A stretch of 64,000 bases of DNA from a virus, in IMG/VR virus record IMGVR_UViG_3300010430_000003, positions 146,327-210,326 of that record. One strand, given 5' to 3'. A program made the translations under genes and the position numbers. The notes under the pieces are model-generated. The model had not been told where the DNA came from, did no database searches, and worked only from the letters and a program-made list of their open reading frames with translations. Below, piece by piece: positions 1 to 62,120 of this stretch (the first letter of the stretch is position 1; each line of letters begins with the position of its first letter).

Positions 1-47
1 TAGGAATACAAATGCACCGATTCCATGAGAGATATCCAATACCATGA
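1..47 (+). CDS. MNIN-family small protein, C-terminal fragment (runs in from the left)
   Basis: Only the last 14 codons are inside the window. Read in the frame ending TGA at 45-47, they give a tail with an R-x-F-x-x-x-YP-I pattern. That matches the C-termini of the next two complete family members (RAFAKIYP, RRFASSYP). The stop overlaps the next start as ATGA. The match is short, so membership is inferred. Confidence 0.5.
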   Translation, partial: GIQMHRFHERYPIP

Positions 48-247
48 ATAACAATAGATTGAATATCAATATGGTGATTGCAATCAATATCTGCGCATCA
101 GCAGACATTATGTATTTGAGAGAAAGAAAAGAAAAAGAAGTAAAGCTTAAAGGAAGACTTACAGTGATCAAAGCCCGCATTGCTTCTTTATTGTTATGGA
201 ATCGCTGTCGCTATTTCCATAGGCAATTCCCAGTTGATCATGAATAA
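44..247 (+). CDS. MNIN-family small protein (67 aa)
   Basis: Function unknown. The N-terminus MNNNRLNINMVIAINI carries the family motif (MN, then N-x-x-I-A with an aromatic or aliphatic run). The middle is basic. It ends in HE, encoded by CATGAATAA, and the same bases supply the ATGAATAA start of the following gene. It overlaps neighbours on both sides, so translation is probably coupled. Confidence 0.7.
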   Translation: MNNNRLNINMVIAINICASADIMYLRERKEKEVKLKGRLTVIKARIASLLLWNRCRYFHRQFPVDHE

Positions 248-467
248 CAATTCAATCAACATGTTCATTGCCGCTCATATCATTTCAAGCATTGATATAT
301 ATTACATTAAGCAGATAGGAGAGTTTATATACCCCAGAGGACATATCAACTCACAGAGATTCATATATTATAGAGAATATATACATCAAACTTGTCGAGC
401 CTTCGCCAAAATATATCCAATGGACTCAGAAAGGTCTAACATGTTCGACGAAGTAACAGTGCAATGA
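240..467 (+). CDS. MNIN-family small protein (75 aa)
   Basis: Function unknown. N-terminus MNNNSINMFIAAHIIS. It is a close paralog of the next gene: both contain GEFIYPR near residues 27-33, then RF-x-x-Y-x-EY and R-x-FA-x-x-YP. The start at 240 was chosen over an upstream in-frame ATG because it matches the family motif and overlaps the previous stop. Rich in Tyr, Ile and Phe; no membrane segment. Confidence 0.8.
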   Translation: MNNNSINMFIAAHIISSIDIYYIKQIGEFIYPRGHINSQRFIYYREYIHQTCRAFAKIYPMDSERSNMFDEVTVQ

Positions 468-661
468 ATGATTCAAATATCAATATGTTCATCGGTTTTC
501 ATGTCTTTTCAGACACAAATATATATCACGTTGTTCGGATGGGGGAGTTTATCTATCCTAGAAGAAAAGCATACTCATATAGATTCTCATTTTATAAAGA
601 ATATGTATGGCAAGCAACGCGACGCTTCGCATCATCATATCCAATACAATGCCATGAATAA
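464..661 (+). CDS. MNIN-family small protein (65 aa)
   Basis: Function unknown. MNDSNINMFIGFHVFS start, GEFIYPRR in the centre, RRFASSYP near the end. It looks like a tandem duplicate of the preceding gene. It starts with an ATGA overlap on the previous stop and ends in CHE, with the CATGAATAA junction reused as the next start. Confidence 0.8.
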   Translation: MNDSNINMFIGFHVFSDTNIYHVVRMGEFIYPRRKAYSYRFSFYKEYVWQATRRFASSYPIQCHE

Positions 662-950
662 TTCAGAAATCAATATTGAAATATGCAACAACTTCGTTTC
701 AAGAGCAAGCAATGGTTCTATAAGATTCTATATGCATAGAAGTTCAATGTATTATAGATTATATGGGTATCAGGTAAGAACGAACAAAATAACTATCTAT
801 ACAAGAATATTCTTTCAACCAATAATGAAGTATATGATGGAAGAGCATCCAACGGTTATTAAGCAGGATGCGGAATCACAGTATATACGGTGGAAGATGT
901 GGAAACTGACAGAGCGAGCAGAGAGGATTCTAAGAAAGTCATTCATTTAG
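654..950 (+). CDS. MNIN-family small protein (98 aa)
   Basis: Function unknown. MNNSEINIEICNNFVS start, then a Tyr- and Arg-rich centre. The C-terminal tail is longer and more charged than in its neighbours (ERAERILRKSFI). The start overlaps the previous stop. It is the last gene of the first sub-array and is followed by about 135 bases without an obvious gene. Confidence 0.75.
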   Translation: MNNSEINIEICNNFVSRASNGSIRFYMHRSSMYYRLYGYQVRTNKITIYTRIFFQPIMKYMMEEHPTVIKQDAESQYIRWKMWKLTERAERILRKSFI

Positions 951-1085
951 ATAAGGGTTTATCTATAAGGTAGTGTGGAATGGATTGTGTGGGTGTGTGC
1001 TTGGTTAGAAGGGAACGACCGGAGGGAGTGTAGTAGTTGATTCTAGCACTGTAACTCAGGAACAAAGTAACTAGGAATAACAGAG

Positions 1086-1283
1086 ATGAAAAGAGACATA
1101 ATTAATCAAATAATAGCACAAACATTATTCGTAACCCACATTCAAGAAGTGTGGAAATATAGACTAACTTATCATAGAGGAACATATAAATATTATGAAG
1201 GGTTAGGTGATATCCTTCCTTTACCAAGAATAGCAGAAACAGTGTTAATTGATAAAGCCTCACACCTCAGAAGAAAACCATGA
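1086..1283 (+). CDS. MNIN-family small protein (65 aa)
   Basis: Function unknown. The N-terminus MKRDIINQIIAQTLFV keeps the I-N-x-x-IA-x-x-F core, although the first residues differ. It opens the second sub-array after a short gap and overlaps the next gene by four bases (ATGA). Confidence 0.75.
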   Translation: MKRDIINQIIAQTLFVTHIQEVWKYRLTYHRGTYKYYEGLGDILPLPRIAETVLIDKASHLRRKP

Positions 1284-1450
1284 TTGATACAATTGTAAAC
1301 TGTCATATTGGGGCATTGATATCATATCAGTTTTCGAGATCGCACATATTGCATGGCGATCTCCCCAGACCCAGATTAACACTATCCAGTTATTTTAATG
1401 TTAAGAGCAGAAGAAGCATGGGGTATCAATGGTTAGTGAGAGAATTATGA
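1280..1450 (+). CDS. MNIN-family small protein (56 aa)
   Basis: Function unknown and short enough to be missed by length cut-offs. N-terminus MIDTIVNCHIGALISYQF. It fits exactly between ATGA overlaps on both sides, which is the main evidence that it is real. The C-terminus GYQWLVREL has the aromatic and basic character of the family. Confidence 0.65.
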   Translation: MIDTIVNCHIGALISYQFSRSHILHGDLPRPRLTLSSYFNVKSRRSMGYQWLVREL

Positions 1451-1611
1451 ACATTAATATCCAGATAATGAGTTTTATGGTTAGAGAGTTCTTCTTCTAT
1501 CCAAACACTGTGGTCTTTGAAAGATATGTATATTATGACTATGCAGATGTATTGGCATTCTATCAAATAGATATTAAAGATACTTTGATTAAGTATAGGA
1601 AATTAATGTGA
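1447..1611 (+). CDS. MNIN-family small protein (54 aa)
   Basis: Function unknown. N-terminus MNINIQIMSFMVREFF is close to the family consensus. An upstream in-frame ATG (1429) lies inside the previous gene. The start at 1447 was preferred because it gives both the motif and an ATGA overlap. About one residue in four is aromatic. Confidence 0.75.
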   Translation: MNINIQIMSFMVREFFFYPNTVVFERYVYYDYADVLAFYQIDIKDTLIKYRKLM

Positions 1612-1781
1612 ATGTTGAGATAGCAATACGGTTTCTTGAACCACTAACAGATGCTACCATGTTTTTGAATAGTGCTAGCACACGATATTCATTATCAGAG
1701 CCTTGCCACTCAATAAGATCAGAGGAGGTGAGATTTTTTAAGAAAAGCTTGAAATATTACTATGAAGTGCAACAACAATGA
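1608..1781 (+). CDS. MNIN-family small protein, GTG start (57 aa)
   Basis: Function unknown. It starts with GTG overlapping the previous stop; the nearby ATG at 1612 is closed by a TAG within three codons. The N-terminus VNVEIAIRFLEPL and the C-terminal RFFKKSLKYYYEV fit the family. The stop overlaps the next ATG (ATGA). Confidence 0.7.
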   Translation: MNVEIAIRFLEPLTDATMFLNSASTRYSLSEPCHSIRSEEVRFFKKSLKYYYEVQQQ

Positions 1782-1954
1782 ATATTAACATTATGATAGC
1801 AAACTGTTGGTTGGGGCCATTCACATATTCCAGTATGTATTTGAACAATTGTTATAAGAAATATAGCATTATTCGTTATGGATCTGCCATCGCTGGACGC
1901 TTCTTAAGAGAGGTTAGATATCATTTAAATAACCTTTTGATAGCTGATAAATGA
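1778..1954 (+). CDS. MNIN-family small protein (58 aa)
   Basis: Function unknown. N-terminus MNINIMIANCWLGPF is one of the clearest examples of the motif. The C-terminal half has RFLREVRYHLNN, resembling the R-F-x-x-Y helix of the other array members. ATGA overlaps at both ends. Confidence 0.75.
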   Translation: MNINIMIANCWLGPFTYSSMYLNNCYKKYSIIRYGSAIAGRFLREVRYHLNNLLIADK

Positions 1955-2136
1955 ATATCAATCAAATGGTGGCATATGCATATATTCGATCTTATTGGTG
2001 GAGAAACATCAGACCTATCACTGATAGGTCGAGTTTACAATGGCAAATAGAATGGATAAATATAACTGACTACATCGAGGAAGTTGAGTACCATATTTCC
2101 TCATTACCTGATACCACTTACCCAGTACCCAGGTAG
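1951..2136 (+). CDS. MNIN-family small protein (61 aa)
   Basis: Function unknown. N-terminus MNINQMVAYAYIRSYWW; Trp- and Tyr-rich. Last gene of the contiguous ATGA-linked array. It is followed by a short CA-rich tract (2137-2200) before the next, longer relative. Confidence 0.75.
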   Translation: MNINQMVAYAYIRSYWWRNIRPITDRSSLQWQIEWINITDYIEEVEYHISSLPDTTYPVPR

Positions 2137-2200
2137 GGCTCGCCCACATGCGCACACGCATAACACACACACATACGCACATATGTGCAATAGGTGAACA

Positions 2201-2913: not shown

Positions 2914-3561
2914 ATGGGAAAGAAGAACGAAGAGACGACCGAAGAGACGCCGAGCAACATGGAGCGCATTTCTTCTGCGCTGGCCCTGCTGGAGAACGTA
3001 CAGCCTCCTGCGACGTCAGACGAAGTCAAGTCGATCAAGGCCGAGTCCGATAAGCTGAGCAAGGCGCGTGAGGCGCTGAGCGCTGCTGGTCTCGACACTG
3101 ACGCGGTCGATGCGAAGATCGCGGAACTCGGCGAAGCGGAAGCGAAAGCGGACGCGGGTCGCTCGGAACTGGTTGTTGCGCTTGCTCATGTTGAGCGCTT
3201 CACCAAGATTCTGGGTCAACGGTGCTCCGGTGCTAGGGTGGAGAGTGTCCGGGAGAAGTTCGCCGGAATCATCGAGGCCGGAATTCCTGAGTTTCCGGGA
3301 CCGTGTGAAATGAAGACCCTCGCAAGCGGTAAGAAGCGGGCTGTCCACGGTGGACGGGCAACGCAGATCGTTACCGCTCTCCTCTCGATGTCGGAGAATG
3401 GTCGGCTGCGCGTCAGCATCGAAGCCATGGCGGAAGCCCTGCTGGACGTCGACGATACTTTCGGCGACCTCGAAGGTGCTGCCCAGCAGTGTCGCACGGT
3501 ACTTCAGAACTATGCCGACGTGTGGACGTCTGATAGTTCCTTCGTGTTCTCGCAGAATTAG
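2914..3561 (+). CDS. GC-rich hypothetical protein (215 aa)
   Basis: I do not recognise this protein. It starts at ATG 2914 after a plausible ribosome-binding site (CGAGGT). The N-terminus is Glu/Thr-rich, residues about 25-110 are Ala/Glu/Lys-rich and probably helical (repeated AEAKAD-like segments), and the C-terminal half is mixed with several Cys. Codon third positions are strongly G/C, unlike every neighbour. This suggests recent acquisition or a gene under a different expression constraint. No paralog was seen in the window. Long antisense ORFs over it are best explained by its composition. Confidence 0.7.
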   Translation: MGKKNEETTEETPSNMERISSALALLENVQPPATSDEVKSIKAESDKLSKAREALSAAGLDTDAVDAKIAELGEAEAKADAGRSELVVALAHVERFTKILGQRCSGARVESVREKFAGIIEAGIPEFPGPCEMKTLASGKKRAVHGGRATQIVTALLSMSENGRLRVSIEAMAEALLDVDDTFGDLEGAAQQCRTVLQNYADVWTSDSSFVFSQN

Positions 3562-5233: not shown

Positions 5234-5579
5234 TGACGGAAGCCTTCAAATACGGCGAATCAAGATTTGAATCCGCCCAATCCGTATTATCCTCCCACCA
5301 TTTCAAGCCCCTAAATGTCCCCGTGTTCATATGGGGATCTCCAGCTTGTCTAAGAATGACTTCCATGATTGCTTCATCAACCTCCGTCATATCTTTGTGA
5401 TTGAGGATATACTGAAAATGCAAGGCCATCTCTCTGAACTCCTCATAAGATTGCACATCCCAGTCGGGGAAGGTTTTTGAAGAATGATGGGTTATTTCAT
5501 CATAAATGTTTTCGGGATCAAATGCGCGGTATGGGAATGCGATCGTTTTGACTCGCTTCGCGAGATCATCATAATTCAT
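5223..5579 (-). CDS. Hypothetical protein (118 aa)
   Basis: No recognised family; soluble and acidic. It is linked by ATGA to the upstream MNIN-family gene and overlaps the downstream one, so it sits inside an array as part of the same transcript. Confidence 0.6.
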   Translation of the reverse strand: MNYDDLAKRVKTIAFPYRAFDPENIYDEITHHSSKTFPDWDVQSYEEFREMALHFQYILNHKDMTEVDEAIMEVILRQAGDPHMNTGTFRGLKWWEDNTDWADSNLDSPYLKASVIDW

Positions 5580-5764
5580 TGCTGCTCCAATCTTCGTTGT
5601 TCTCTTAACAATGTCTTAAGAGAATGAATATTATTGGTATTGAAAAGCCTCATATTTATGTGGTAATATGAATGTGGAAAAATAAAATTATCAACCCAGA
5701 AAGGGTTGAGGAAAAATCCAAGCCTTCGCAACATTGCACAATGTATTTTTTGATTGATATTCAT
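5576..5764 (-). CDS. MNIN-family small protein (62 aa)
   Basis: Function unknown. MNINQKIHCAMLRRLGFF start, aromatic centre and a basic C-terminus (LLREQRRLEQQ). The start shares its first base with the last base of the upstream stop; ATGA overlap downstream. Confidence 0.75.
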   Translation of the reverse strand: MNINQKIHCAMLRRLGFFLNPFWVDNFIFPHSYYHINMRLFNTNNIHSLKTLLREQRRLEQQ

Positions 5765-6006
5765 TAGTAAGGGTAACGTGAAAAGGTTCTATAATTATCA
5801 AAATCAATCTTTTCTTCCATATTCCGCCACCGGGCATCATTCTCATTTCTCATTAATGTTAAATATGAATCCATCCAACCATTTGTGTATCTTGCATTCG
5901 GTTTAATATCATAATATGGTTTTATATAATATAAAGAATCAAAGTGACAACAAATCTGTGCCATCTTTTGTATCATTGCATATTTTATTATAAGATTGAT
6001 ATTCAT
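5764..6006 (-). CDS. MNIN-family small protein (80 aa)
   Basis: Function unknown. MNINLIIKYAMIQKMAQI start; central Tyr-rich segment; GWMDSYLTLMRNEND matches the W-[ILM]-x-[SP]YL C-terminal sub-motif. The extra C-terminal tail is acidic. Confidence 0.75.
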   Translation of the reverse strand: MNINLIIKYAMIQKMAQICCHFDSLYYIKPYYDIKPNARYTNGWMDSYLTLMRNENDARWRNMEEKIDFDNYRTFSRYPY

Positions 6007-8727: not shown

Positions 8728-8937
8728 TCAAAGTCCCATGAAGATTTGCAATCTTGATCGTTTATTATGAAGAATCATAGAACAAAAATCACGATAAGCA
8801 TATTTTATTCTAATCTCACGATATGAATGATATTTCTGATAGAAATCCATTTCAACTTGAGTCTTCCATATTACAGGAACTCCTTGAATAACCATATTAT
8901 ACCCAACACACAAATTTATCATTGTATCTTTACACAT
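8728..8937 (-). CDS. MNIN-family-like small protein (69 aa)
   Basis: Function unknown. The motif is displaced by a few residues: MCKDTMINLCVGYNMVI. The C-terminal half, YAYRDFCSMILHNKRSR, has the aromatic/basic pattern. It overlaps the upstream member by 8 bases. Confidence 0.6.
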   Translation of the reverse strand: MCKDTMINLCVGYNMVIQGVPVIWKTQVEMDFYQKYHSYREIRIKYAYRDFCSMILHNKRSRLQIFMGL

Positions 8938-9115
8938 TTATATTTTTCAATGTTCGCAAATAAGAAGTGAGCCAATTCTCAACTTTATTGTGATAAAAGA
9001 AGCTAGAACAAAAATATTTTGGCCAATAAAAACTATCCCATGATGTGAATCCGAGCACTTCTATTGTTGTCGTTCTTCTAAGAAAACGATCACGCACAAC
9101 TTTATTAATATCCAT
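8930..9115 (-). CDS. MNIN-family small protein (61 aa)
   Basis: Function unknown. MDINKVVRDRFLRRTT start; aromatic centre; C-terminal NWLTSYLRTLKN is the WI-x-SYL sub-motif. The ATG at 9115 was chosen over 9202 because the longer form would lie across the upstream family gene. Confidence 0.7.
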   Translation of the reverse strand: MDINKVVRDRFLRRTTTIEVLGFTSWDSFYWPKYFCSSFFYHNKVENWLTSYLRTLKNINV

Positions 9116-9302
9116 ATTTTTTAAAATGCCTAAAGAAGATTTGAGGACGAAAGCAATTATATTTAAGCATGGATTGATAATTATCATATGAACAGTAAAC
9201 ATCTTTCATTGAATAACATTCCAACGGTTCAAAGGGATAGGTAGGATGCCACCAATACCATATTAATCGGTTAGCAAGAATAGTATTAATATTTGAATTC
9301 AT
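9105..9302 (-). CDS. MNIN-family small protein (65 aa)
   Basis: Function unknown. MNSNINTILANRLIWYWW start, almost identical in its first six residues to the upstream neighbour (MNSNIN), which points to tandem duplication followed by divergence. Cys/Tyr-rich centre. Confidence 0.75.
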   Translation of the reverse strand: MNSNINTILANRLIWYWWHPTYPFEPLECYSMKDVYCSYDNYQSMLKYNCFRPQIFFRHFKKYGY

Positions 9303-9534
9303 TGATTTTCAACATATAATGTTCATACCATCTTTTTAACCACCGTTCACCACAATTAATAGGATCAGTATATTCTCTAAAAAATATCAAGAAGTGACTT
9401 CTACCTTTTCTTGGGTGACTTTCATAACCGACACCGGGAAAATTTCTATCACCTAAATTAAAATTGGGATTGCTAGGTGAATATAATTCCAAATATATTC
9501 GGCAGGCTAGAAGTTGATTGATGTTGGAATTCAT
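9286..9534 (-). CDS. MNIN-family small protein (82 aa)
   Basis: Function unknown. MNSNINQLLACRIYLELY start; Pro/Gly/Asn-rich middle; C-terminus RWLKRWYEHYMLK. It overlaps the next paralog by 17 bases. Confidence 0.75.
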   Translation of the reverse strand: MNSNINQLLACRIYLELYSPSNPNFNLGDRNFPGVGYESHPRKGRSHFLIFFREYTDPINCGERWLKRWYEHYMLKINEFKY

Positions 9535-15884: not shown

Positions 15885-16115
15885 TTAATGAAAAGCTTTA
15901 TAAGAAAGCTCGCAGAAAAGACCTTTATGAGTACAATGATACATGGTGGGTTTTTTAAGTTTATTCATCATCTTTATTCTTGAAGATCTGTCACATAGAT
16001 ACTTGGAATGAATTTCAAATGAATGATGTTTGATCAATCCGAAGTGCGTGAAATGGTTCCAATCAAAATCGTCATGCATGAAAAACCCTGCAATCATTAA
16101 ATTAATGTAATTCAT
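15885..16115 (-). CDS. MNIN-family small protein (76 aa)
   Basis: Function unknown. MNYINLMIAGFFMHDDFDW start. It shares NLMI-x-x-x-F and a following DFDW-x-HF with the gene at 16302, so the two are recent paralogs. The second of two Met codons was chosen by motif. Confidence 0.75.
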   Translation of the reverse strand: MNYINLMIAGFFMHDDFDWNHFTHFGLIKHHSFEIHSKYLCDRSSRIKMMNKLKKPTMYHCTHKGLFCELSYKAFH

Positions 16116-16305
16116 TATCAAACTGTCTCATTGCATGGATGCAAACTCTAATTGAACTGTGCAAATATCCCTCATACCATTCAATAAATGTTGTATATCG
16201 ATGATCTGATATACAAGAACCTTCTCTAGCAGAGTTGTTCTTAATATCAGGAAGTTCGTAATCTAATACAAAACAATTGGAGACCAACAAGTTAATGTGA
16301 TTCAT
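16102..16305 (-). CDS. MNIN-family small protein (67 aa)
   Basis: Function unknown. MNHINLLVSNCFVLDYE start; WYEGYLHSSIRV in the C-terminal half is a variant of the W-x-x-YL motif. Overlaps both neighbours. Confidence 0.75.
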   Translation of the reverse strand: MNHINLLVSNCFVLDYELPDIKNNSAREGSCISDHRYTTFIEWYEGYLHSSIRVCIHAMRQFDNELH

Positions 16306-16508
16306 AACCCTTTAAATAAAACTTCATGTTTTGGATATTTATCTTTTATAAAGGAATACATTGAGAACTTTTCAGGCATTAGATACAAGCTTTCTCTTTG
16401 AGAAAAAGGTATAACCTCCTTATTGACACGGAAGTGAATCCAATCAAAATCATAATTTATAAAATATATACTTATCATTAAATTGATATTATCAATCTTG
16501 GCTTTCAT
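16302..16508 (-). CDS. MNIN-family small protein (68 aa)
   Basis: Function unknown. MKAKIDNINLMISIYFIN start, then YDFDWIHF shared with the gene at 15885. The start at 16508 was chosen over 16595, which would run deep into the upstream gene. Confidence 0.7.
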   Translation of the reverse strand: MKAKIDNINLMISIYFINYDFDWIHFRVNKEVIPFSQRESLYLMPEKFSMYSFIKDKYPKHEVLFKGL

Positions 16509-17925: not shown

Positions 17926-18171
17926 TCAACATGTATTGCAACCCTTTTTCATAAAATCGAGAACTTCGATTAAATAGGTATCAAAATGATTAAAATATCT
18001 ATCTCTTACCAAGTCTAAAGTTATACAAGATTCATGATGGCTATAATTATCAAGAAAAACAGCGTATGGGAAAGAATAGTATGCATTCATATGAACGTTC
18101 CATGATTCGCGAAATAATCTACCCTTAGTTCCACCTAAAAATCTCTTGCAAATTAAAAAATTTATATTCAT
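17926..18171 (-). CDS. MNIN-family small protein (81 aa)
   Basis: Function unknown. MNINFLICKRFLGGTKGR start; Tyr/His-rich middle; ends MKKGCNTC. ATGA overlap with the upstream gene. About 80 AT-rich bases separate it from the lipoprotein start. Confidence 0.75.
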   Translation of the reverse strand: MNINFLICKRFLGGTKGRLFRESWNVHMNAYYSFPYAVFLDNYSHHESCITLDLVRDRYFNHFDTYLIEVLDFMKKGCNTC

Positions 18172-18512
18172 TTATAACCTTTAAACCATCTTTCAAACCA
18201 TGTTGGTTGACGATCATGCCAACGAACCTCTATTTTAGAGATCTCATTAGGTTCCCACAATGTTTTATATATTTCTTTATAAGTCAAATTAACAGAATCA
18301 ACTCTCCACACAGGAATCTTAAGATAAGCCCCAAGAATTTCAAACATCTCTTCTTTGGAAAAGATTAGAATAGATTTCTGTTTAACCAAATAATATTTCT
18401 GTGGCAACTGAGAAGTCGGTCTGGGATCAAGAAATTTGAGTTTCTCGTGAGGGCCAAACATTGTTTTAAAATCACTTGTGCTTAGATATTCTTTTTGTAA
18501 AGTAACCATCAT
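18168..18512 (-). CDS. Hypothetical protein (114 aa)
   Basis: No recognised family; basic, with a C-terminal RQPTWFERWFKGYK tail. It sits directly after the small basic gene upstream. Confidence 0.55.
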   Translation of the reverse strand: MMVTLQKEYLSTSDFKTMFGPHEKLKFLDPRPTSQLPQKYYLVKQKSILIFSKEEMFEILGAYLKIPVWRVDSVNLTYKEIYKTLWEPNEISKIEVRWHDRQPTWFERWFKGYK

Positions 18513-18668
18513 TCACCGATATTCAGAATCATGCCAGAACAGTTCAATATATTCCTCGTATTTATCTTTGTGAAGATATTTGCGAAGATTGGCTTTTCCT
18601 TTAGCCCTATCCCTCTTCACCCTTCCCCGCTTGTAACATTTTATGGATTTGCGTGTATGAGGACTCAC
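18513..18668 (-). CDS. Small very basic protein, GTG start (51 aa)
   Basis: The GTG at 18668 overlaps the TAG stop of the upstream gene. The product has a run rich in Arg and Lys (CYKRGRVKRDRAKGK) and an acidic aromatic tail, so it may bind nucleic acid. A longer reading from 18728 would lie within the upstream membrane-protein gene and is less likely. Confidence 0.5.
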   Translation of the reverse strand: MSPHTRKSIKCYKRGRVKRDRAKGKANLRKYLHKDKYEEYIELFWHDSEYR

Positions 18669-18946
18669 TAATCGCTGCCCCCACCACCTACAAAGAACAG
18701 TAAGAGTGATAAAATTCCAAACCACCAAGACAATTCAATATTAAAGAAAACGATTGGTTCTCCATATAACCACATAATCATCCATCCAATGGCAAATCCG
18801 ATGGCAAATCTAATGGCGTACATTACAGCGGCAAAAAGGAGAACCGTAAGAAAAGCACCAACCCCGAAAAGTACTGCAAGAACAGGTGTGAAGTAAGGCT
18901 TCAGAAAATCATAACTGCGTTGATACCAAGTTCTAATGTGGTGCAT
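18668..18946 (-). CDS. Membrane protein (92 aa)
   Basis: Two to three hydrophobic segments (about residues 17-42, 45-60 and 70-87), with a Gly-rich end (FFVGGGGSD). Predicted inner-membrane protein of unknown function. The ATG at 18946 (MHHIRTWYQ) was chosen over upstream Met codons inside the family gene. Confidence 0.6.
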   Translation of the reverse strand: MHHIRTWYQRSYDFLKPYFTPVLAVLFGVGAFLTVLLFAAVMYAIRFAIGFAIGWMIMWLYGEPIVFFNIELSWWFGILSLLLFFVGGGGSD

Positions 18947-19157
18947 AATTGTTATTCCTTTGAAAGAAGAATATAAGGTTTTCATAGTAAGTATTTCCAC
19001 TCGCCGTAAAGTTTTTAACTATTGTTTCATAATAAATTGCAGAGTTTCTAAACTTATCATTTGATACGAACATTTTATCTGCTGTCAGGCGATGCCAGTT
19101 GCAAATGTAAAGGACATAGGTTCGTGCTATGATGATATTAATATCGTTTGATTCCAT
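18933..19157 (-). CDS. MNIN-family small protein (74 aa)
   Basis: Function unknown. MESNDINIIIARTYVLYI start (N-x-x-IA-x-x-Y core); Asn/Tyr/Phe-rich C-terminus. Overlaps neighbours on both sides. Confidence 0.7.
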   Translation of the reverse strand: MESNDINIIIARTYVLYICNWHRLTADKMFVSNDKFRNSAIYYETIVKNFTASGNTYYENLIFFFQRNNNYAPH

Positions 19158-19353
19158 TTAATTTAGCCAGCAGTGATTTGTTTTTATTTCTCAATAACAG
19201 TGAAATATTGTGCTTTATATATTGAGGATATCTTTGGAGTTTCTTCAAAGCGGGACATGTCTTTCTTGAAAAGCCATGGGAACCATTTTTGTAAATCTTA
19301 TGACAACCGCTATATAGAAAAATATGAGCAACAAAAATATTAATATTATTCAT
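19138..19353 (-). CDS. MNIN-family small protein (71 aa)
   Basis: Function unknown. MNNINIFVAHIFLYSGCH start; Lys-rich body, the most basic member of this block. Overlaps the next paralog by 20 bases. Confidence 0.75.
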   Translation of the reverse strand: MNNINIFVAHIFLYSGCHKIYKNGSHGFSRKTCPALKKLQRYPQYIKHNISLLLRNKNKSLLAKLNGIKRY

Positions 19354-23286: not shown

Positions 23287-26200
23287 ATGGGTGGTCTCGC
23301 TGGTCGTATCAAATATCTTTATGAAGGTGATTTAACCTTCAAAGAACTTAAAACTATTCTTGAAAATATTTCATTAAGTCACCTTCCTCTTTATGAAAAA
23401 GTGGATGGATTTAATTGCTATTTTTCTTGCAGAAGAGGTATGCCTGTAATGGCTCGAAATCTGACCGAAGCACGGTCAGGTGGTTTATCCATCATTGAAC
23501 TATCAAATCGAGAATTTAAAGGTGGCAAGAAAGTAAAGAAGGTTTTTATTGAAGCCCTCAAAAATTTCTCCAAAGATTTCAGACTCTTAGATAAGAAAAT
23601 TTTTGAAAGCGATGGGAATCAAGTTTTTTATAATTTTGAAATCGTTGACAAAAATACGAATCGTTTGTTTGAATATGATAGTAACGGTCTTGTCTTGCAC
23701 AACTCTGGTCATTTCTGCATTGTTGAAAATAATAAACATTTTGTCAATGGCGATGGTTTTAGAACAGGAACTATCGGAACCAAATATATTAAGCATAATT
23801 TCAAAACCTCTCTTAGAGAAAATTCATATTTTGATGGAAGTTCATTCATACAAAGAATTGATGAAGTAATGCAATCAGTTGGATTGTCTGAACTCAATTC
23901 AATTTCAGAATTGAAAGAGCAAGAGAGACTCAAAAAGATTCTTAATGAGTTTTCTAATAATTTAATAAACTCTCTTAAAAGTAATTTTGTTGACAGTCAA
24001 GAAGAAAAAGTAACTCAATTCAAAGATCGAGTCAAAGAAGCTGTTGATTGTCTCCTTGAATATTCAGGTCCAAATCGAGCACAGGTCGTTGAAAAAACTA
24101 TTCATTATTTAAATCAATTCCCTGCCATTGACTCAATCAACTCATGCATTGAAGGGGTTGTTTTTGAACATAATGGCGAAATGTATAAAATGACTGGTTA
24201 TTATAGACCAATAAATCAACTTTATGGCTTTTATCAAAAGACGCTAAAGGAATTCGATTCAGGTCGAATGTATCCCATTGAGCCAAGCTCTTATAATGTT
24301 GACGGTGTTTTGACACATCCTCAAGAAAAAACCATTGCAATCTTTCCTGGAAGTTTTAAACCGCCTCATGCGGGACATTATCGAATCATTGAGGAATTGA
24401 AAAAACTCAAAACTCCTGATGGTTTTCATATTTGTAATAAGATAATCATTTTAATTTCTAATAAGGCTAGAATGGCTCAATCTGATTCGAAAACGACATA
24501 TGTCACCGCTGAGATTGCTAAGGAGCTTTGGGATCTCTATGTGTCAAATGAAGATGCTCAAACTCGAATTGAAGTCCGAGTTGCAGATCACGACACTCCA
24601 ATTAAGTGTGTTTATGATATCATGCTTAATGAAATGTCTCCCGGCGAAACTTTGATGTTGGTCAAATCAGATAAAGACGCAAATTCAGATCGATTTAATG
24701 CTTTTTCAGATTTCTCGGATGAATATGACCTCGGTGTTAAGGTTATTGCAAAAGAAATGAATATCTTCTCTGCGGGAATTTCAGCTTCAAATATGCGAAA
24801 CTGGATTGCTGATGGAGATGAGGATAGGTTCAAGGGCTTCCTCCCAGATCACTTATCGTCAGAAGACCGCGCTCGTGGTTGGGAAATTGTTACCGGCGAA
24901 CAAGACGTTTCGTTATCGGAAGACGACTCTTTTTTTTTAAGTGAAGGGTATGACGCTCTTCTTGAAGGAGAAGGTGATAAACGTCTAAAGAGTGCCCTCC
25001 GGAAGAACCCAGATTATAAAGAACAAATTGAAGCTCTTGCTGCAGCTGATCCTTCCGGCAAAGGAAGGAAGCTTTTGCCTTGGATGGTTCGTGAGCTTGT
25101 GAAGTTTGATGGCGGGCGAACAAATGATATTATTGCTGTGATATCATTGTTTTGGCAATATCGGCAACGCTTTAAAGCAGCTTCCTATTCAACCGATGTT
25201 TTTTCATATTCCTTTGAAGAAATGTTGACTCTCCTTAAGAAATTAAGACTCACTCCTCGTTTTGATAAAATTAAGTCTCCTCTTCGAACATCCAATTATC
25301 CCGGTTCTTCTGTTGTGTATGAGGAAGAAGACTTTGCTGTGATCCGACCATATACCTTTGAAGCTTCATGCTATTTTGGAGAAGAGGGAAATTGGTGCAT
25401 CTCCACTGATGAGGGTCATTGGAATGACTATGTCGGAAATGAATCTGTTCATTATATCTTAATTAATGATTCAATTAAATTTGAAGAAGATGCTGATTCA
25501 AAAATTGATTTTGTTGTAAGACATGGTACAGTCATGGAGCTGTGGGATAAAGAAAATACTTCTCTTGATGAAGATTATGTGGAAGAGCTTCTTGGAGAAG
25601 AACTCTATAACAAAATTGAACAAGCAATTTTAACAGATTATGAACGTGATCCTGATAATGAAGAAACAGGTAATCGCAAAGAGTGGATTGAACTTCAATC
25701 TGAAATCGAAGCTGATTGGGATGATCGAAAATATATCACATGTGAGATATATGAATATGATTCGAATCAATTCCAGCTTCAAGCTTGGATTAATATTGAC
25801 TTCGATGAAACGAATATAAAATTAAAACCGCAAGAACGCTCTTGGCAAGCGTCTCAAAAATTTTCTCATGCAATTGAAGCAATTATTGATTATACAATCG
25901 AAGATGTTGAAGTTGATGGGAATACAATTCGTGGTAGAATATACCTTGATGATGTATTTACCCCTGATGACGCACAATATAGTTGGGAGCAATTAACAGA
26001 AAAAGATGATTATCTTCAAGGTGATGATCCCGATGACAACATTCGAGCCGTTGTTTATTCACTGTGGGAATATGATTTAATTGAAGGTGAAACAGAAAGT
26101 AAAATAGAAATCATCAAAAAGATTGATGAGCATGAGTTCAGATATCTTTTCGCCGATTTTGATGAAGATGAAGGGTTATCGGTTCAATTTACTCTCCACG

Positions 26201-29118
26201 ATTTAATGCTTCCCATTTTTCCAGAACAATATGTTGTTTACGAAGATAAAGGGGTGGATTCAATGCGTCCAAATCTTAGTACACAAAGTTTTCAAAATAG
26301 AGCAATTCGAAGGCAAACTTTCGAAGGTGCAGACATTAAAATGCACACTCAAGATTTCTTTAAAAAGTTTGGAATTCCCACTTCTCTTGTAACAGCATCA
26401 GAACATGAAGTTATTCTTGGAGAAAAAGCTTATGGAATTGTTAATAAGAATTTAGAAATGGAAACGTTTGCTATTAGAGATAATTCTGGTGTTGAAAACT
26501 ATAGAGATGTCGATGAAAAAGTAAGTTCTGTTGTTAAACAGGCCGGGAAGGATCCTGATTTCTTAGATGGTGGAATAATTGTTGAATATTTCTCGAAGGA
26601 TGGGAAACTTGTAAATTCTGTTCATTGCTTGATTAAATTCTATCTTTGGATTGGAATAGCAGATCTTTTATATATTGATGATGATGACATGGCTGGCTTA
26701 TTGGAAAAGCTTATTGAATTAGATTCAAGCGGTAAAATTGAAGATTTCCGAAACCAAATTAAAGATCTCATGCTCGGTAAAAGAAAGTCAATTATGCAAA
26801 ACGATCTCGGAAAGATTAAAGATAATATAGGCAGGAAGTTTATCAATAAATATTATCTATCTAACTTTTCCGTAACAGAATCCTTTACTGATCAAATTCT
26901 CGAAAAATGTGGTCCTGATAAAACTGTGATTGTTTGGAATTCTCCTAGATCCCAAAACACAGATCGATATTTCCTTGAGGCAAAGCTTGAAGCTATGAAT
27001 AGGGGGATTGATACGTCTGGACTATATTACGCTCCAGTTAATGAACTGTTCATGACCGAACATGGATTGATAGAAGAAGAGATTAACGGTGGCTCTTCTG
27101 ATCAGTTTGCTGTTGTTCCAAAGATGAATACAAAGGCTCATTGGTATTTTAATAATTTAAAATCAGAAAATCAATTGGCTTCTCATTCATTGGGACAGTT
27201 TCATCTGTTAATGGAAAATCGGGTTGATTTCTTGCAAAAGACATATCGTGAGAAAATCTTCAATAAACTGATCAATAGTCTTTCAACACTCTATATGGCA
27301 GAAATAGACCACTTAAATTGGAAGTGGCTTGGACCTCACATTGTTGCCGCTTATAATAAGGTAATGGAAGACCCAGCCGTCGGGAAAGAATTCCTTTCAA
27401 GTATTGAAGAAGACGACATTGAAAGACTTAAAGACCAAGCATTTGAATTCTTTATTGAAACTGATCCTTCTAAAAAGAAAAAGTTTAGCCAATGGTTGAT
27501 CTTTAAGTTCATTAAAGATGACGAACGCATTGAAGATATCTGGAGTTCGGCGGGTGATCTTGAGCTTTTCGAACAGCTTGTTGAACGAAGAATTATTATA
27601 GGTGTTGATATCAACAAACTTTCATTAAAAGAACTTAAGGAAATTGTTGATGAACATGAAGGTCAGTTATCTGCTCGACAGAAGGCTGGTAAAGGAAATG
27701 AAAAAGAGCAAATCATCAAGAATGAAATGGACGTTCTCTTTCAAGAGGGTGAATATGTGATGGCTCTCCCAAAAACACAAAGAGCTTCATGTCTTCTTGG
27801 TACAGAAACACATTGGTGCACCGCTTCTCGTGGTGATCGCAACATGTTCGACATGTATTACGAAGACGGCCCGTTGATTGTGTTTATTACTCCTGCCGGA
27901 AAGTGGCAGCTTCACATTGAATCAAAACAATTTATGGATAAGAATGATTCTCCTATTGATTTATTACCTTGGATTGATTCCAATGAAATTTTCAAGGAAC
28001 CATTTTTGAAATTCTTGCTCGATAATGAATGGGATAAAAAGCTCGATCAAACCGATATATATAGCCAATATTTTTCAAATTCGGGAATGTTGAGAGATCT
28101 CTCCATTTTTATATTCCAAGAAACATTAACAGAAGAAAAAGCATTGGATATCATTGAGAAAGGCTCCCGACCAAAGAATGCTACTCACGTTGATTTTGGA
28201 ACCAAAAACTCATTTGGTGGGGAAATCAAGAATAAAATGTTATTCGATATCTTATGGAATTCAGAACATAAGAAGTGGTGGAAGCTTAAGAGACGTTGGG
28301 TTAGAAAACTTGTAGAAGCTTATGAAAATGGGGTCGTTCCCGTGGGTCAAATAAGAAAAGATATGGTGAATAACTTTATCAATCTAATGCCTCCCAACGA
28401 TTTCAAAGAAATCTTCATGCCAACTTTTATAAGTGAAAATTATCCAACATCCAGAGAGATGTTTTTGAAAACAATTGCTATTGATGCGCTCGGTTTGAAA
28501 ATTGGATTCAATACAGAGAAAGGAGCACAGAATTTTCTAACAATCCTCGAAAGAATAATTAAAAATGAGGGTGAGTCTAATCTTGCATGGAAATCATATC
28601 AAAATTCCATCGAACCAAAAGGTTGGGTGTTAGAGATGCTTAAAAGACCAAATCTTAAAGAATGGTATTCTCAAAAATTTGAAGAATTAGATTATGCTCA
28701 AAGAACCGCCGTAGCCTTCGATATGCTTAAAACAGGTAAGAAAAACAATGATCAAATGTCAGGCTCCTCAAATGTTGAATTCGTTGACGATAACTCCCCA
28801 ATTACCAAGTTCTTCATTCCAAGACTCAAAAAAGGAATTTCGGGATCAAAAAAATATAATGACTTCCCAAAATTGGGAGGTTATTTATCGCAATGGGAAG
28901 AGATTAACAAACTTGATCCAGAGATTACCGATATTTGGGTTGATACATTCTTAAATGCAGTGGAAAATGGAAAGGATAGTGATTCAAAAGAAAGGCAAAT
29001 GTCATGGATGTACGGTAACATTACTGATAAACATGGGAATCCTATTAGATATGGACCACCTCAATTCAAACAGTTGATTGAACCATTGAAAAAAGCACTT
29101 GGGCGAGATCATGATTGA
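23287..29118 (+). CDS. Giant multidomain nucleotidyltransferase protein (1943 aa)
   Basis: Residues about 1-330 resemble the ATP/NAD-dependent ligase nucleotidyltransferase fold: a KVDG lysine motif at 38-41 and an EGVVFEHNGEMYK segment near 288. Residues about 348-545 form a cytidylyltransferase-like HIGH-superfamily domain, GSFKPPHAGH near 355-364 and ISASNMR near 497. Two later copies of an unrecognised domain share ASC-x-x-G-x-x-x-x-WC-[IT]-[SA] (near 692 and 1500). The C-terminus is helical. Size and operon position suggest a virion or injected protein. Which nucleotide chemistry it performs, and whether both domains are active, is unknown. Confidence 0.75.
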   Translation: MGGLAGRIKYLYEGDLTFKELKTILENISLSHLPLYEKVDGFNCYFSCRRGMPVMARNLTEARSGGLSIIELSNREFKGGKKVKKVFIEALKNFSKDFRLLDKKIFESDGNQVFYNFEIVDKNTNRLFEYDSNGLVLHNSGHFCIVENNKHFVNGDGFRTGTIGTKYIKHNFKTSLRENSYFDGSSFIQRIDEVMQSVGLSELNSISELKEQERLKKILNEFSNNLINSLKSNFVDSQEEKVTQFKDRVKEAVDCLLEYSGPNRAQVVEKTIHYLNQFPAIDSINSCIEGVVFEHNGEMYKMTGYYRPINQLYGFYQKTLKEFDSGRMYPIEPSSYNVDGVLTHPQEKTIAIFPGSFKPPHAGHYRIIEELKKLKTPDGFHICNKIIILISNKARMAQSDSKTTYVTAEIAKELWDLYVSNEDAQTRIEVRVADHDTPIKCVYDIMLNEMSPGETLMLVKSDKDANSDRFNAFSDFSDEYDLGVKVIAKEMNIFSAGISASNMRNWIADGDEDRFKGFLPDHLSSEDRARGWEIVTGEQDVSLSEDDSFFLSEGYDALLEGEGDKRLKSALRKNPDYKEQIEALAAADPSGKGRKLLPWMVRELVKFDGGRTNDIIAVISLFWQYRQRFKAASYSTDVFSYSFEEMLTLLKKLRLTPRFDKIKSPLRTSNYPGSSVVYEEEDFAVIRPYTFEASCYFGEEGNWCISTDEGHWNDYVGNESVHYILINDSIKFEEDADSKIDFVVRHGTVMELWDKENTSLDEDYVEELLGEELYNKIEQAILTDYERDPDNEETGNRKEWIELQSEIEADWDDRKYITCEIYEYDSNQFQLQAWINIDFDETNIKLKPQERSWQASQKFSHAIEAIIDYTIEDVEVDGNTIRGRIYLDDVFTPDDAQYSWEQLTEKDDYLQGDDPDDNIRAVVYSLWEYDLIEGETESKIEIIKKIDEHEFRYLFADFDEDEGLSVQFTLHDLMLPIFPEQYVVYEDKGVDSMRPNLSTQSFQNRAIRRQTFEGADIKMHTQDFFKKFGIPTSLVTASEHEVILGEKAYGIVNKNLEMETFAIRDNSGVENYRDVDEKVSSVVKQAGKDPDFLDGGIIVEYFSKDGKLVNSVHCLIKFYLWIGIADLLYIDDDDMAGLLEKLIELDSSGKIEDFRNQIKDLMLGKRKSIMQNDLGKIKDNIGRKFINKYYLSNFSVTESFTDQILEKCGPDKTVIVWNSPRSQNTDRYFLEAKLEAMNRGIDTSGLYYAPVNELFMTEHGLIEEEINGGSSDQFAVVPKMNTKAHWYFNNLKSENQLASHSLGQFHLLMENRVDFLQKTYREKIFNKLINSLSTLYMAEIDHLNWKWLGPHIVAAYNKVMEDPAVGKEFLSSIEEDDIERLKDQAFEFFIETDPSKKKKFSQWLIFKFIKDDERIEDIWSSAGDLELFEQLVERRIIIGVDINKLSLKELKEIVDEHEGQLSARQKAGKGNEKEQIIKNEMDVLFQEGEYVMALPKTQRASCLLGTETHWCTASRGDRNMFDMYYEDGPLIVFITPAGKWQLHIESKQFMDKNDSPIDLLPWIDSNEIFKEPFLKFLLDNEWDKKLDQTDIYSQYFSNSGMLRDLSIFIFQETLTEEKALDIIEKGSRPKNATHVDFGTKNSFGGEIKNKMLFDILWNSEHKKWWKLKRRWVRKLVEAYENGVVPVGQIRKDMVNNFINLMPPNDFKEIFMPTFISENYPTSREMFLKTIAIDALGLKIGFNTEKGAQNFLTILERIIKNEGESNLAWKSYQNSIEPKGWVLEMLKRPNLKEWYSQKFEELDYAQRTAVAFDMLKTGKKNNDQMSGSSNVEFVDDNSPITKFFIPRLKKGISGSKKYNDFPKLGGYLSQWEEINKLDPEITDIWVDTFLNAVENGKDSDSKERQMSWMYGNITDKHGNPIRYGPPQFKQLIEPLKKALGRDHD

Positions 29119-55545: not shown

Positions 55546-56763
55546 GTGAAGAAGATACATGATTTGAATACAATACGTGGATGGCATTATGAGGGTAAGA
55601 AAAGACTTTCCCGCAAGAAGCGTAAAATCATTGCCATGATTCCTGCCCGTTTAGGCTCACAGAGAATCCCAAAAAAGAATGTTAGATATCTTCACAACAA
55701 ACCATTAGTACAGTGGATTATTGATGCTGCTAAAGAATCTGGTATTTTTGATGAAATCTGGCTTAACACTGAAGATGATGGGTTGTTAGCTAAGATTGCC
55801 AAAGAATCAGACATCAAATTCTATTTGCGGGATATCAGCCTAGCAACTGATGGCGCAACCAACGATCAATTCTTAATGGACTTTGTTAAATCACGAAAAC
55901 TAAGAGATGAAGATTATATTGTTCAACTGCTTCCAACCTCACCTTTTATTAAGCCTGAAACTATTTCTGATTTCACAGAAGAATTGTTGGCAGTTGATAC
56001 GTTGATTTCTGTTGTCGAACACAAAATTGAATGTCTTAATTCTAAAATGGAGCCATTGAATTTCGATGTTCTTGATGACACTCTCCCTTCTCAGGATCTG
56101 AGACCTGTTTATTCATATGCGTGTGGGCTAATGGGGTGGAATGTTCTTTCATTAAAAGAAATTTATAATGAGGGTTGTTCTCCATATCACTCATATCATT
56201 CAAGAAAGGAAGTCTTCATTCTTGGGAATGAAGAGGCAATTGATGTTGACACTGAATCAGATTTTCAATTTGCGGAAAGTGTTGCTATGTCAATGCATTA
56301 TGATGAAATTAAGCCTCGATATTATGGAGAATATTCATCTGTTGAATATGATGTGAAACCTCTTCTTGAAAAAGACGGCATTAAAAGAACAGAAGCTTGG
56401 ACAACATCACCGTCAGTATTAAAACGGGTTAATGTGACAAGGATGGTGGAAGCGATGCCTGATTCATACGCTAAAACTCTTGTGAACTCTCCGTTCAATA
56501 GTGCAACTCTGATCCGGCAGAATGACGGGGAAGGAAATAGAAAACACTCACATAGTAACTGGGCTGAATGGTGGTTGATTCAGGAAGGTAAATGTGTGTT
56601 TGAATATTGGGAAAAAGAGAATAGAAGCTCACGAGCAATGGTATTGATTACTGGCGACCTGCTATACATCCCAGCAGGCATAGAACATAAGATCACCGCG
56701 AAGGGTGGGCCATGCACAAGATTGGCTGTATCTCGTTATGATGTGGCACATTTTTATAAATGA
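55546..56763 (+). CDS. CMP-sugar synthetase (NeuA-like) fused to a cupin domain, GTG start (405 aa)
   Basis: Residues about 27-250 form a cytidylyltransferase: IIAMIPARLGSQRIPKKN near 28-45 and IVQLLPTSPFIKPETI near 125-140, as in CMP-NeuAc and CMP-Kdo synthetases. Residues about 300-405 form a cupin (HSHSNWAEWWLIQEG near 334, YIPAGIEHKI near 375), perhaps an isomerase or a sugar-sensing domain. The fusion is unusual. It should supply a CMP-activated acidic sugar to the sialyltransferase-like proteins on either side. Confidence 0.75.
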   Translation: MKKIHDLNTIRGWHYEGKKRLSRKKRKIIAMIPARLGSQRIPKKNVRYLHNKPLVQWIIDAAKESGIFDEIWLNTEDDGLLAKIAKESDIKFYLRDISLATDGATNDQFLMDFVKSRKLRDEDYIVQLLPTSPFIKPETISDFTEELLAVDTLISVVEHKIECLNSKMEPLNFDVLDDTLPSQDLRPVYSYACGLMGWNVLSLKEIYNEGCSPYHSYHSRKEVFILGNEEAIDVDTESDFQFAESVAMSMHYDEIKPRYYGEYSSVEYDVKPLLEKDGIKRTEAWTTSPSVLKRVNVTRMVEAMPDSYAKTLVNSPFNSATLIRQNDGEGNRKHSHSNWAEWWLIQEGKCVFEYWEKENRSSRAMVLITGDLLYIPAGIEHKITAKGGPCTRLAVSRYDVAHFYK

Positions 56764-56957
56764 CTGGTTTGATTAATTTAATAGTTAGACAAAAATTCGT
56801 TTATTCTATTAACGTGAGAGAAAATGGGTGGCCTCTCTCTCGTCATAATTGGGATTATCGAGAGTTTGACGATTATGAAGTATATTATGATATCTCTAAT
56901 GTTAAAATGTGGAAAGTGATCATTAAACAGAAGATTCATTCATATGAATTATCATGA
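56760..56957 (+). CDS. MNIN-family small protein (65 aa)
   Basis: Function unknown. MTGLINLIVRQKFVYSIN start (I-N-L-I core); Tyr/Trp-rich. ATGA overlaps on both sides, inserted between the CMP-sugar synthetase and the aminotransferase. Confidence 0.7.
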   Translation: MTGLINLIVRQKFVYSINVRENGWPLSRHNWDYREFDDYEVYYDISNVKMWKVIIKQKIHSYELS

Positions 56958-57133
56958 ATATCAACCTTTCCATAGCTGAAAAGATTCTATATACCTACTC
57001 ACCATGGCCCTCTCACTACTATTATTTTTGTTATGATGCTGATGATTTTTCAAGAATAGGAACATTTGATAGTTTTCGACATAGTAGAGTTAGAGTCTAT
57101 AATCACCTACAATTAATGAAACGTTATGTATAA
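56954..57133 (+). CDS. MNIN-family small protein (59 aa)
   Basis: Function unknown; just below common length limits. MNINLSIAEKILYTYSPW is a textbook family start. Tyr/Asp/Arg-rich body. Overlaps the previous family gene (ATGA) and the aminotransferase gene (8 bases). Confidence 0.75.
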   Translation: MNINLSIAEKILYTYSPWPSHYYYFCYDADDFSRIGTFDSFRHSRVRVYNHLQLMKRYV

Positions 57134-60672: not shown

Positions 60673-61730
60673 CATATAGAACACAGAAGGTTGCTGTAGT
60701 TTCCGGAGCAACTGGACAAACAGGAAGTTATTTGATTGACCTTCTTCTTGAAAGAGGTTATTATGTTATCGGTCTGAAAAGGCGAACATCGTTGATTTCA
60801 ACTGATCGAATCGATCATCAAATGAATAATAAAAATTTTAAGATGGTATATTATTCTTCTTTTGATCCCACAGTTACATATAGAATTATTCAAGAGTATC
60901 AACCTGATGAAGTATATAATATGGCATGTCAAAGTCATGTCAAAGTCAGTTTCGAAACTCCACAAGAAACCATGGATTCAATTATTCATGGTTGTTTATA
61001 TTGGCTTGAAGCAATTCGTATCTTAAATCCAAGAACAAAATTTTATCAAGCTAGTTCATCAGAAATGTTTGGCAGAAACACAGAGGTTCCTCTTAACGAG
61101 AAATCTGTTATGTTGCCCGCTTCACCTTATGCCTGTGCAAAATTGGCAGCGCATCACTTGGTTCAGAATTATAGAGAATCATATAATTTGTTTGCTGTGT
61201 CTGGGATTTTATTCAATCATGAAGGCCCCCGAAGAGGAGAAACCTTTGTCACAAGGAAAGTGACAAAGGCTGCCGCCAAAATTAAACTCAACCTTCAAAA
61301 ACAATTGGTGCTCGGTAATTTGGACGCTAAACGAGATTGGGGCTTCGCAGGTGACTATGCGGACGTGATTTGGAGAATGCTCCAGATTTCAAATGCTCAA
61401 GATTATGTTGTTGCAACTGGTGAGACACACACTGTTAGAGAGTGGGTTGAAGAAGTGTTTAAACATGCTGGTATGGAGATTGAGTGGCGAGGAATTGGTC
61501 TTGAGGAAAAAGGTTATATTAATGATGTGGAAACTATAGTGATAAGTGAGATGTATTACAGACCACAAGAAGTGCCCGTTCTCCTCGGAGACCCAAATAA
61601 GGCTTATAGAGATTTACAGTGGGATCCGAAAGTGAAGTTTTCAGATTTAGCGCAAATGATGTATAAAGCAGATTATGGTGAAGTTTTAGAGGAGAATGGA
61701 GGTTGGATTGAAGCATCCTTCTTTGATTAA
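60669..61730 (+). CDS. gmd: GDP-mannose 4,6-dehydratase (353 aa)
   Basis: VVSGATGQTGSYLIDLLLER near residues 10-29 is the NAD(P) site; ASSSEMFGR near 126-134 and YACAKLAAHHL near 154-164 carry the catalytic Ser/Glu/Tyr/Lys; FNHEGPRRGETFVTRKV near 183-199 is the GMD-specific stretch. Converts GDP-mannose to GDP-4-keto-6-deoxymannose. ATGA overlap with fcl indicates one pathway. Confidence 0.9.
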   Translation: MTYRTQKVAVVSGATGQTGSYLIDLLLERGYYVIGLKRRTSLISTDRIDHQMNNKNFKMVYYSSFDPTVTYRIIQEYQPDEVYNMACQSHVKVSFETPQETMDSIIHGCLYWLEAIRILNPRTKFYQASSSEMFGRNTEVPLNEKSVMLPASPYACAKLAAHHLVQNYRESYNLFAVSGILFNHEGPRRGETFVTRKVTKAAAKIKLNLQKQLVLGNLDAKRDWGFAGDYADVIWRMLQISNAQDYVVATGETHTVREWVEEVFKHAGMEIEWRGIGLEEKGYINDVETIVISEMYYRPQEVPVLLGDPNKAYRDLQWDPKVKFSDLAQMMYKADYGEVLEENGGWIEASFFD

Positions 61731-61920
61731 TTTATGTATTAAAACTCATTTTTGTTATGCGGTATCAATAAGATTCTATAGTTCGTTTAAATATCGACTT
61801 TCCAATGTTAATAGTAAAATTATCACAAGACATACTTTTCAAAGAAACTATCACTTTTATGCTCATGAAGAAGAAATGATGAATTCCGTGCTTTCGCTAA
61901 TGAAAAAACATAAAACATAA
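61708..61920 (+). CDS. MNIN-family small protein, probable TTG start (70 aa)
   Basis: Function unknown. TTG at 61708 lies just after GGAGG; an in-frame ATG at 61696 is possible. N-terminus LKHPSLINLCIKTHFCYA. Basic and Phe/Tyr-rich. Overlaps gmd by 23 bases. Confidence 0.6.
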   Translation: MKHPSLINLCIKTHFCYAVSIRFYSSFKYRLSNVNSKIITRHTFQRNYHFYAHEEEMMNSVLSLMKKHKT

Positions 61921-61931
61921 AGCTTTTACAA

Positions 61932-62120
61932 ATGAAACAGAACTCTTTGATTAATATGAAACTAAGAAATATCATTTATAAATGGTTTTTATTTGAAGAT
62001 TTATTTGAATCACACCCAACACTTTATTGTAGAGATTCTTATACAAACAAAACAAATGGACGATATTTATTTATATCTGACTGTACAATCAAAATTAAAA
62101 AAATGATGAGGAAAATATGA
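61932..62120 (+). CDS. MNIN-family small protein (62 aa)
   Basis: Function unknown. MKQNSLINMKLRNIIYKWF start; resembles its neighbour upstream (SLINL/SLINM). Lys-rich C-terminus. ATGA overlap downstream. Confidence 0.65.
   Translation: MKQNSLINMKLRNIIYKWFLFEDLFESHPTLYCRDSYTNKTNGRYLFISDCTIKIKKMMRKI

Follow-up and report, generated by a model that had tools for sequence, protein, structure and literature searches.

The window analyzed here is a stretch of 64,000 nucleotides (positions 146327-210326 of a viral record of 210326 bases), and it opens inside an array of 26 short open reading frames (ORFs), homologous genes lying head to tail on a single strand. The array occupies genome positions 143339-148462 (5.1 kb); it begins 2987 bp 5' of the window start, and window positions 1-2136 form its last part. 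A T4-type terminase, portal, tail sheath, and late sigma factor mark the source as a T4-like phage. The array members within the window, together with the related ORFs found farther along it, are listed in Table 1.

Table 1. Family ORFs in the window, with window positions, strands, and relations to neighboring genes.
Feature	Position	Strand	Remarks
Upstream family ORF, 3' end	1..47	+	Starts 135 bp 5' of the window, MNSSNINIIIALLIF...ERYPIP; 4-nt overlap with next
Family ORF MNNNRLNINMVIAI...	44..247	+	C-terminal ...VDHE*; 8-nt overlap with next
Family ORF MNNNSINMFIAAHI...	240..467	+	Closest pair with the ORF at 464 (46% aa identity); 4-nt overlap with next
Family ORF MNDSNINMFIGFHV...	464..661	+	C-terminal ...QCHE*; 8-nt overlap with next
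Family ORF MNNSEINIEICNNF...	654..950	+	98 aa, the array's longest
Gap, 135 bp	951..1085	.	Separates runs of 4 and 6 ORFs
Family ORF MKRDIINQIIAQTL...	1086..1283	+	4-nt overlap with next
Family ORF MIDTIVNCHIGALI...	1280..1450	+	4-nt overlap with next
Family ORF MNINIQIMSFMVRE...	1447..1611	+	Alternative in-frame ATG start at 1429; 4-nt overlap with next
Family ORF, GTG start, MNVEIAIRFLEPLT...	1608..1781	+	4-nt overlap with next
Family ORF MNINIMIANCWLGP...	1778..1954	+	4-nt overlap with next
Family ORF MNINQMVAYAYIRS...	1951..2136	+	Array's last member
Two family-like ORFs (MNINQKIHC..., MNINLIIKYAMI...)	5576..6006	-	
Cluster of four family ORFs	8728..9534	-	Overlaps 8, 11, 17 nt
Cluster of three family ORFs	15885..16508	-	Overlaps 14, 4 nt
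Further family ORFs, 17926-18171, 18933-19157, 19138-19353	17926..19353	-	
Two family ORFs, cytidylyltransferase gene to gene starting 57126	56760..57133	+	Overlaps 4, 4, 8 nt
Two family-like ORFs	61696..62120	+	At the site where the flanking genes overlap by 4 nt in relative G006

What unites these genes is a constant protein start, (M)N-I-N-x-x-[IV]-A, or in fuller form (M)N-I-N-[LI]-x-[IV]-A-x-x-hydrophobic. Counting ATG-started ORFs of 45-110 aa, we found the strict motif in 48 ORFs across the genome, compared with a single one when the genome was reversed and 0-1 in each of five shuffled versions; looser criteria and the admission of GTG and TTG starts bring the family to roughly 55-58 members, about 5% of the genome. 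The members are small proteins of about 50-100 aa (median 66 aa), most of them basic (median pI 9.3). The codons for the key residues of the motif hardly differ at positions 1 and 2 but vary freely at position 3, which indicates that a protein, and not a DNA repeat, is under selection. A non-coding DNA repeat was ruled out on the same grounds, and the repeats are in any case short and diverged.

Over the length of the array, the 25 junctions between ORFs comprise 14 overlaps of 4 nt, four of 8 nt, three of 11 nt, three longer ones (25, 53, and 56 nt), and one gap; for one array ORF, starting at window position -1359, the start is uncertain. Within the window, the overlap is exactly 4 nt (ATGA or GTGA) at junctions 44, 464, 1280, 1447, 1608, 1778, and 1951, and 8 nt (ATGAATAA) at 240 and 654. 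The initial annotation had described at least ten consecutive overlapping ORFs here, with the upstream protein ending in HE at junctions 44, 240, and 654. Ten family ORFs do lie at these places, but the 135-bp gap at 951-1085 parts them into runs of four and six, and the HE ending holds at 240 and 654 but not at 44: there, the TGA within ATGA terminates the preceding ORF (window -135..47) as YPIP*. When ORFs of at least 50 aa were chained through overlaps of 1-11 nt, the longest chain within window positions 1-2200 contained 6 ORFs; over the whole array it contained 11, more than anywhere else in the genome. Shuffled sequence never gave a chain of more than 2.

Such short overlaps could simply reflect the dense packing usual in phage genomes, with nothing to explain beyond the presence of a paralog family. 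Overlaps of 4 nt are widespread in prokaryotes (PMC6728339, PMC10666635), and they are also the commonest class among this genome's other close gene pairs, at 21 of 101. The array nevertheless stands above that background, with 14 of 25 junctions (Fisher p = 0.0009, a conservative test, since for the 101 comparison pairs the start nearest to a 4-nt overlap was chosen), and its chain of 11 is unmatched elsewhere in the genome. Ordinary compaction as the whole account is thus a possibility that we rate as somewhat doubtful, and it amounts to a lesser claim rather than a competing mechanism.

The reason that stops and starts share bases can be read from the coding of the start motif, which is usually ATGAAY ATY AAY. 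Because ATGAAY contains TGA in one of the other frames, and the second frame often reaches a stop within 8-11 nt, an upstream ORF in either frame runs into bases that the next gene also uses. Of 29 starts, 27 have the TGA-phase stop ending at nt 4, and 17 have a stop within 11 nt in the other phase, supplied by the codons for N-I-N or N-N. Use of ATC in place of ATT for Ile can let the upstream ORF extend farther, and the 56-nt overlap at window position -2260 is one such case. The overlapping junctions divide 15:9 between the two phases. The overlaps of 4, 8, and 11 nt are stops built into the start motif, for which no special junction sequence is needed. A copy placed behind another ORF would end that ORF at the copy's own start.

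We consider next how the array grew. The initial annotation had proposed that the array can grow by unequal crossing over, and growth by tandem duplication is supported: adjacent array members resemble each other more than distant ones even with the motif excluded (permutation p = 0.0002, from a run in which 1 of the 26 entries was incomplete; the corrected set gave the same top pairs). Neighbor similarity in the smaller clusters outside the array was not significant (p = 0.22). The copies at 240 and 464 are about 69% identical over 182 nt, the maximum for DNA identity of any copy pair in the array, and their homology begins exactly at the ATG; upstream of it, only 1-7 of 15 positions match, which is no similarity. 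Ratios of dN/dS among close copies are about 0.3-0.9, a range that is indicative of weak constraint after duplication. Given the low identity of even the closest pair and these ratios, the array is old, and recent changes in copy number are not visible. With its mixed overlap lengths and phases, the array does not consist of exact unit copies.

Outside the array, dispersed members overlap by 4 nt behind genes as unrelated as those for DNA polymerase III alpha, IMPDH, a sulfotransferase-like protein, and a cytidylyltransferase. Another family ORF start (genome 141569) has a tRNA-Leu (taa) gene (L011:6493-6569) ending directly 5' of it. The family would have spread by tandem duplication in the array and as single copies or small groups at gene junctions elsewhere. 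Comparison with four relatives (G006, G001, G002, and G004), collinear with this genome over long stretches, allows such junctions to be viewed in their bare state: at three loci, all outside the array, the genes flanking family members here are direct neighbors in the collinear relatives. These relatives are distant; terminase identity to the nearest ones found is 42-43%. In G006, the IMPDH gene and the next gene share a 4-nt ATGA overlap; here, an ORF at 106931-107119 lies between them, with overlaps of 4 and 8 nt. The genes at genome 206995 and 208443 likewise overlap by 4 nt in G006 and are separated here by two family-like ORFs (window 61696-62120). The distance from the major-capsid-type gene to the next conserved gene is a 136-nt gap in G001 versus 2.8 kb here, where sulfotransferase-like and guanylate-kinase-like genes sit among several family ORFs (genome 61561-62985; L015:1561-2985).

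Neither pattern nor profile searches found family members in any of the four relatives. Because the family is absent from all of the collinear relatives examined, its gain in the lineage of the source phage is the simpler reading of these alignments, bearing in mind how distant the relatives are. Relatives of identical gene count and order, which the initial annotation had set against its proposal of growth, are not what the comparison reveals: members stand at junctions that are bare in distant relatives, with the array itself lying outside the comparison. A near relative was sought among reference phages and none was found, and a search with the sigma-factor gene just upstream of the array returned no relatives; the only identical contig (L038) comes from another region than the array.

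We note in passing several other features of the window. Shortly beyond the array, a 215-aa ORF (2914-3561) forms an island of about 56-60% GC in a genome of 35.5% GC, suggesting recent acquisition, and just 5' of it lies a short, diverged direct repeat at 2712-2750 and 2808-2850 (GAAACCTTTTTGAGTTTCGAG...CTTAAC and GAAACCTTTTCGAGTTTCGAG...CTTAAC). An adenylosuccinate-synthetase-like protein is encoded at 44684-45772; its best PHROG is the 2-amino-adenylosuccinate synthetase group (E 3e-61), and it could be linked to modified adenine in DNA. A 1943-aa protein at 23287-29118 contains a cytidyltransferase-like stretch, with the rest of its sequence unrecognized.

Searches for the family beyond this genome were uniformly negative. 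Array members had no match in viral contigs, reference phages, or bacterial genomes, and a profile search of 12 related viral records gave no family member; the phage's own genome, run as positive control, yielded 29 matches. A search of viral contigs for DNA patterns of the start motif, whether single or paired, picked out 13 stretches, none of which held the family. There was no recurring match in Pfam or PHROGs for 22 members, and no match among PDB sequences; PADLOC returned three single weak matches (E 0.015-0.033), none common to the members, and these do not amount to a described anti-phage defense model. The limited set of literature searched contained no description of such a family. 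Among the collections searched, the family is to all appearances private to the source phage.

AlphaFold models of two members show helix, hairpin, and helix at low confidence (pLDDT 69 and 72), and a fold search with them found no match. The constant N-terminal helix may bind one common partner while the remainder diverges fast. From their small size, private distribution, and fast divergence, we infer that the family proteins are likely to be rapidly diverging, host-directed effectors; none of the results pointed to a particular host target.

The small proteins known as internal proteins of T4 also have a short constant N-terminus followed by variable sequence. If the proteins encoded here were packaged into the virion in the same way, the constant N-terminus would be a capsid-targeting signal and the variable parts would be injected into the host. 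The invariant extreme N-terminus, the variable remainder, the small size and basic charge (median pI 9.3), and the T4-like nature of the phage are all consistent with such a role. However, the 22 members examined have no recurring PHROG or Pfam match, neither the alignment nor the position table contains a conserved cleavage-like residue after the motif (although the phage's own protease may cut differently), and several members are positioned inside or behind replication and nucleotide genes. The likeness to T4 internal proteins lies in the layout of the protein; no sequence relation was found, and the copies are far more numerous. We regard virion packaging as unlikely.

Doubtful to a similar extent, and ranked after it, is the proposal that the spread was selfish or nearly neutral, with units persisting because they are harmless behind any ORF and serve the phage little. 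The high dN/dS-type ratios among close copies would fit, as would the placement behind many unrelated genes and the two-frame stops in the start motif; but some 55 intact ORFs with a strictly kept protein motif and free third positions need selection, and about 5% of a headful genome is a costly load.

Least probable of the alternatives is the initial annotation's suggestion that the junction word CATGAATAA serves as a recombination site, with unequal crossing over there adding units to the array or removing them: the word is present at 44, 240, and 654, an extended form (ATATCCAATA...CATGAATA) is common to junctions -135, 44, and 654, the 240/464 homology does begin at the ATG, and recombination at homologies of 2-10 bp is known in T4 (PMC9391042), but the word follows directly when MN(N) is encoded behind an ORF, it occurs at only 3 of the 25 array junctions, with the other five genome copies elsewhere, and copies at most about 69% identical give no visible recent exchange. 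We accordingly discarded CATGAATAA as a special site, its eight genome copies (three in the array) being accounted for by coding, and the breakpoint claim is not supported; a second record covering the array, sought with array members in viral contigs, was not found.

Returning to the array as a set of genes whose overlaps arise from the coding of their starts, we examined how it might be translated. Shine-Dalgarno signals at family starts do not exceed background either inside or outside the array: the proportion of starts below -5 kcal/mol is 13-25% for the family, 20% for random positions, and 49% for large genes. The initial annotation had held that the array could grow with no new ribosome-binding sites. 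Array starts do lack the signal, but so do members outside the array, so that the lack is not special to array junctions and is no specific sign of coupling. A scan of the array for promoters and terminators gave about the shuffled expectation. A stop/start overlap of at most 4 nt, as expected of genes coupled by termination-reinitiation, occurs at 14 of the 25 array junctions. Translation along the array would pass from gene to gene by termination-reinitiation, which is the likeliest mode by inference.

A private, expanded small-gene family whose array grew by duplication has good support, so that the initial annotation was largely right in what it described and half right on mechanism. The data show the family and its array, the geometry of the overlaps, local duplication in the array, the family's absence from the relatives examined, and the bare junctions there, whereas coupling, the direction of gain, and the role of the proteins are presumed. 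As a whole, we think it probable, though well short of certain, that a lineage-specific family of about 55 small, mostly basic proteins has its largest cluster in the array and has spread by tandem duplication and by dispersal to gene junctions, with overlaps that follow from start coding, and with reinitiation and a host-directed role as its presumed mode of expression and function. A further step can be offered tentatively: the start-codon region may also terminate translation in both other frames. Each gene would then be a plug-in unit that fits behind any ORF whatever its frame, and the phage would have used such units, in tandem and dispersed, to build its private set of about 55 host-directed proteins that diverge fast. 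If so, there would be a simple rule for adding a small new gene to a packed phage operon with its neighbors' frames unspoiled. Short phage genes of obscure function are abundant and their origin is rarely visible; here, one genome allows a private family to be traced from its duplication in tandem to its dispersal behind core genes, at sites that are bare in relatives, and its roughly 55 proteins form a defined set for testing action on the host.

In its co-directional run of four-nucleotide stop/start overlaps, the array resembles the gene pairs for which termination-reinitiation at ATGA has been described (PMC6728339, PMC10666635). It differs from described ATGA-coupled pairs in being a long run of one family without a Shine-Dalgarno motif, whereas overlapping pairs keep such motifs in most bacterial groups (PMC6728339), and its coupling is putative. 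As to growth, T4-like phages form head-to-tail gene copies by recombination at short homologies (PMC9391042; PMC13096335), and the array is similar in arrangement to the products of dmd-tifA amplification in T4 and of SegB-driven amplification in T6. Those amplifications are recent, near-identical repeats obtained under laboratory selection, whereas the units here are old, single-gene copies that are at most about 69% identical.
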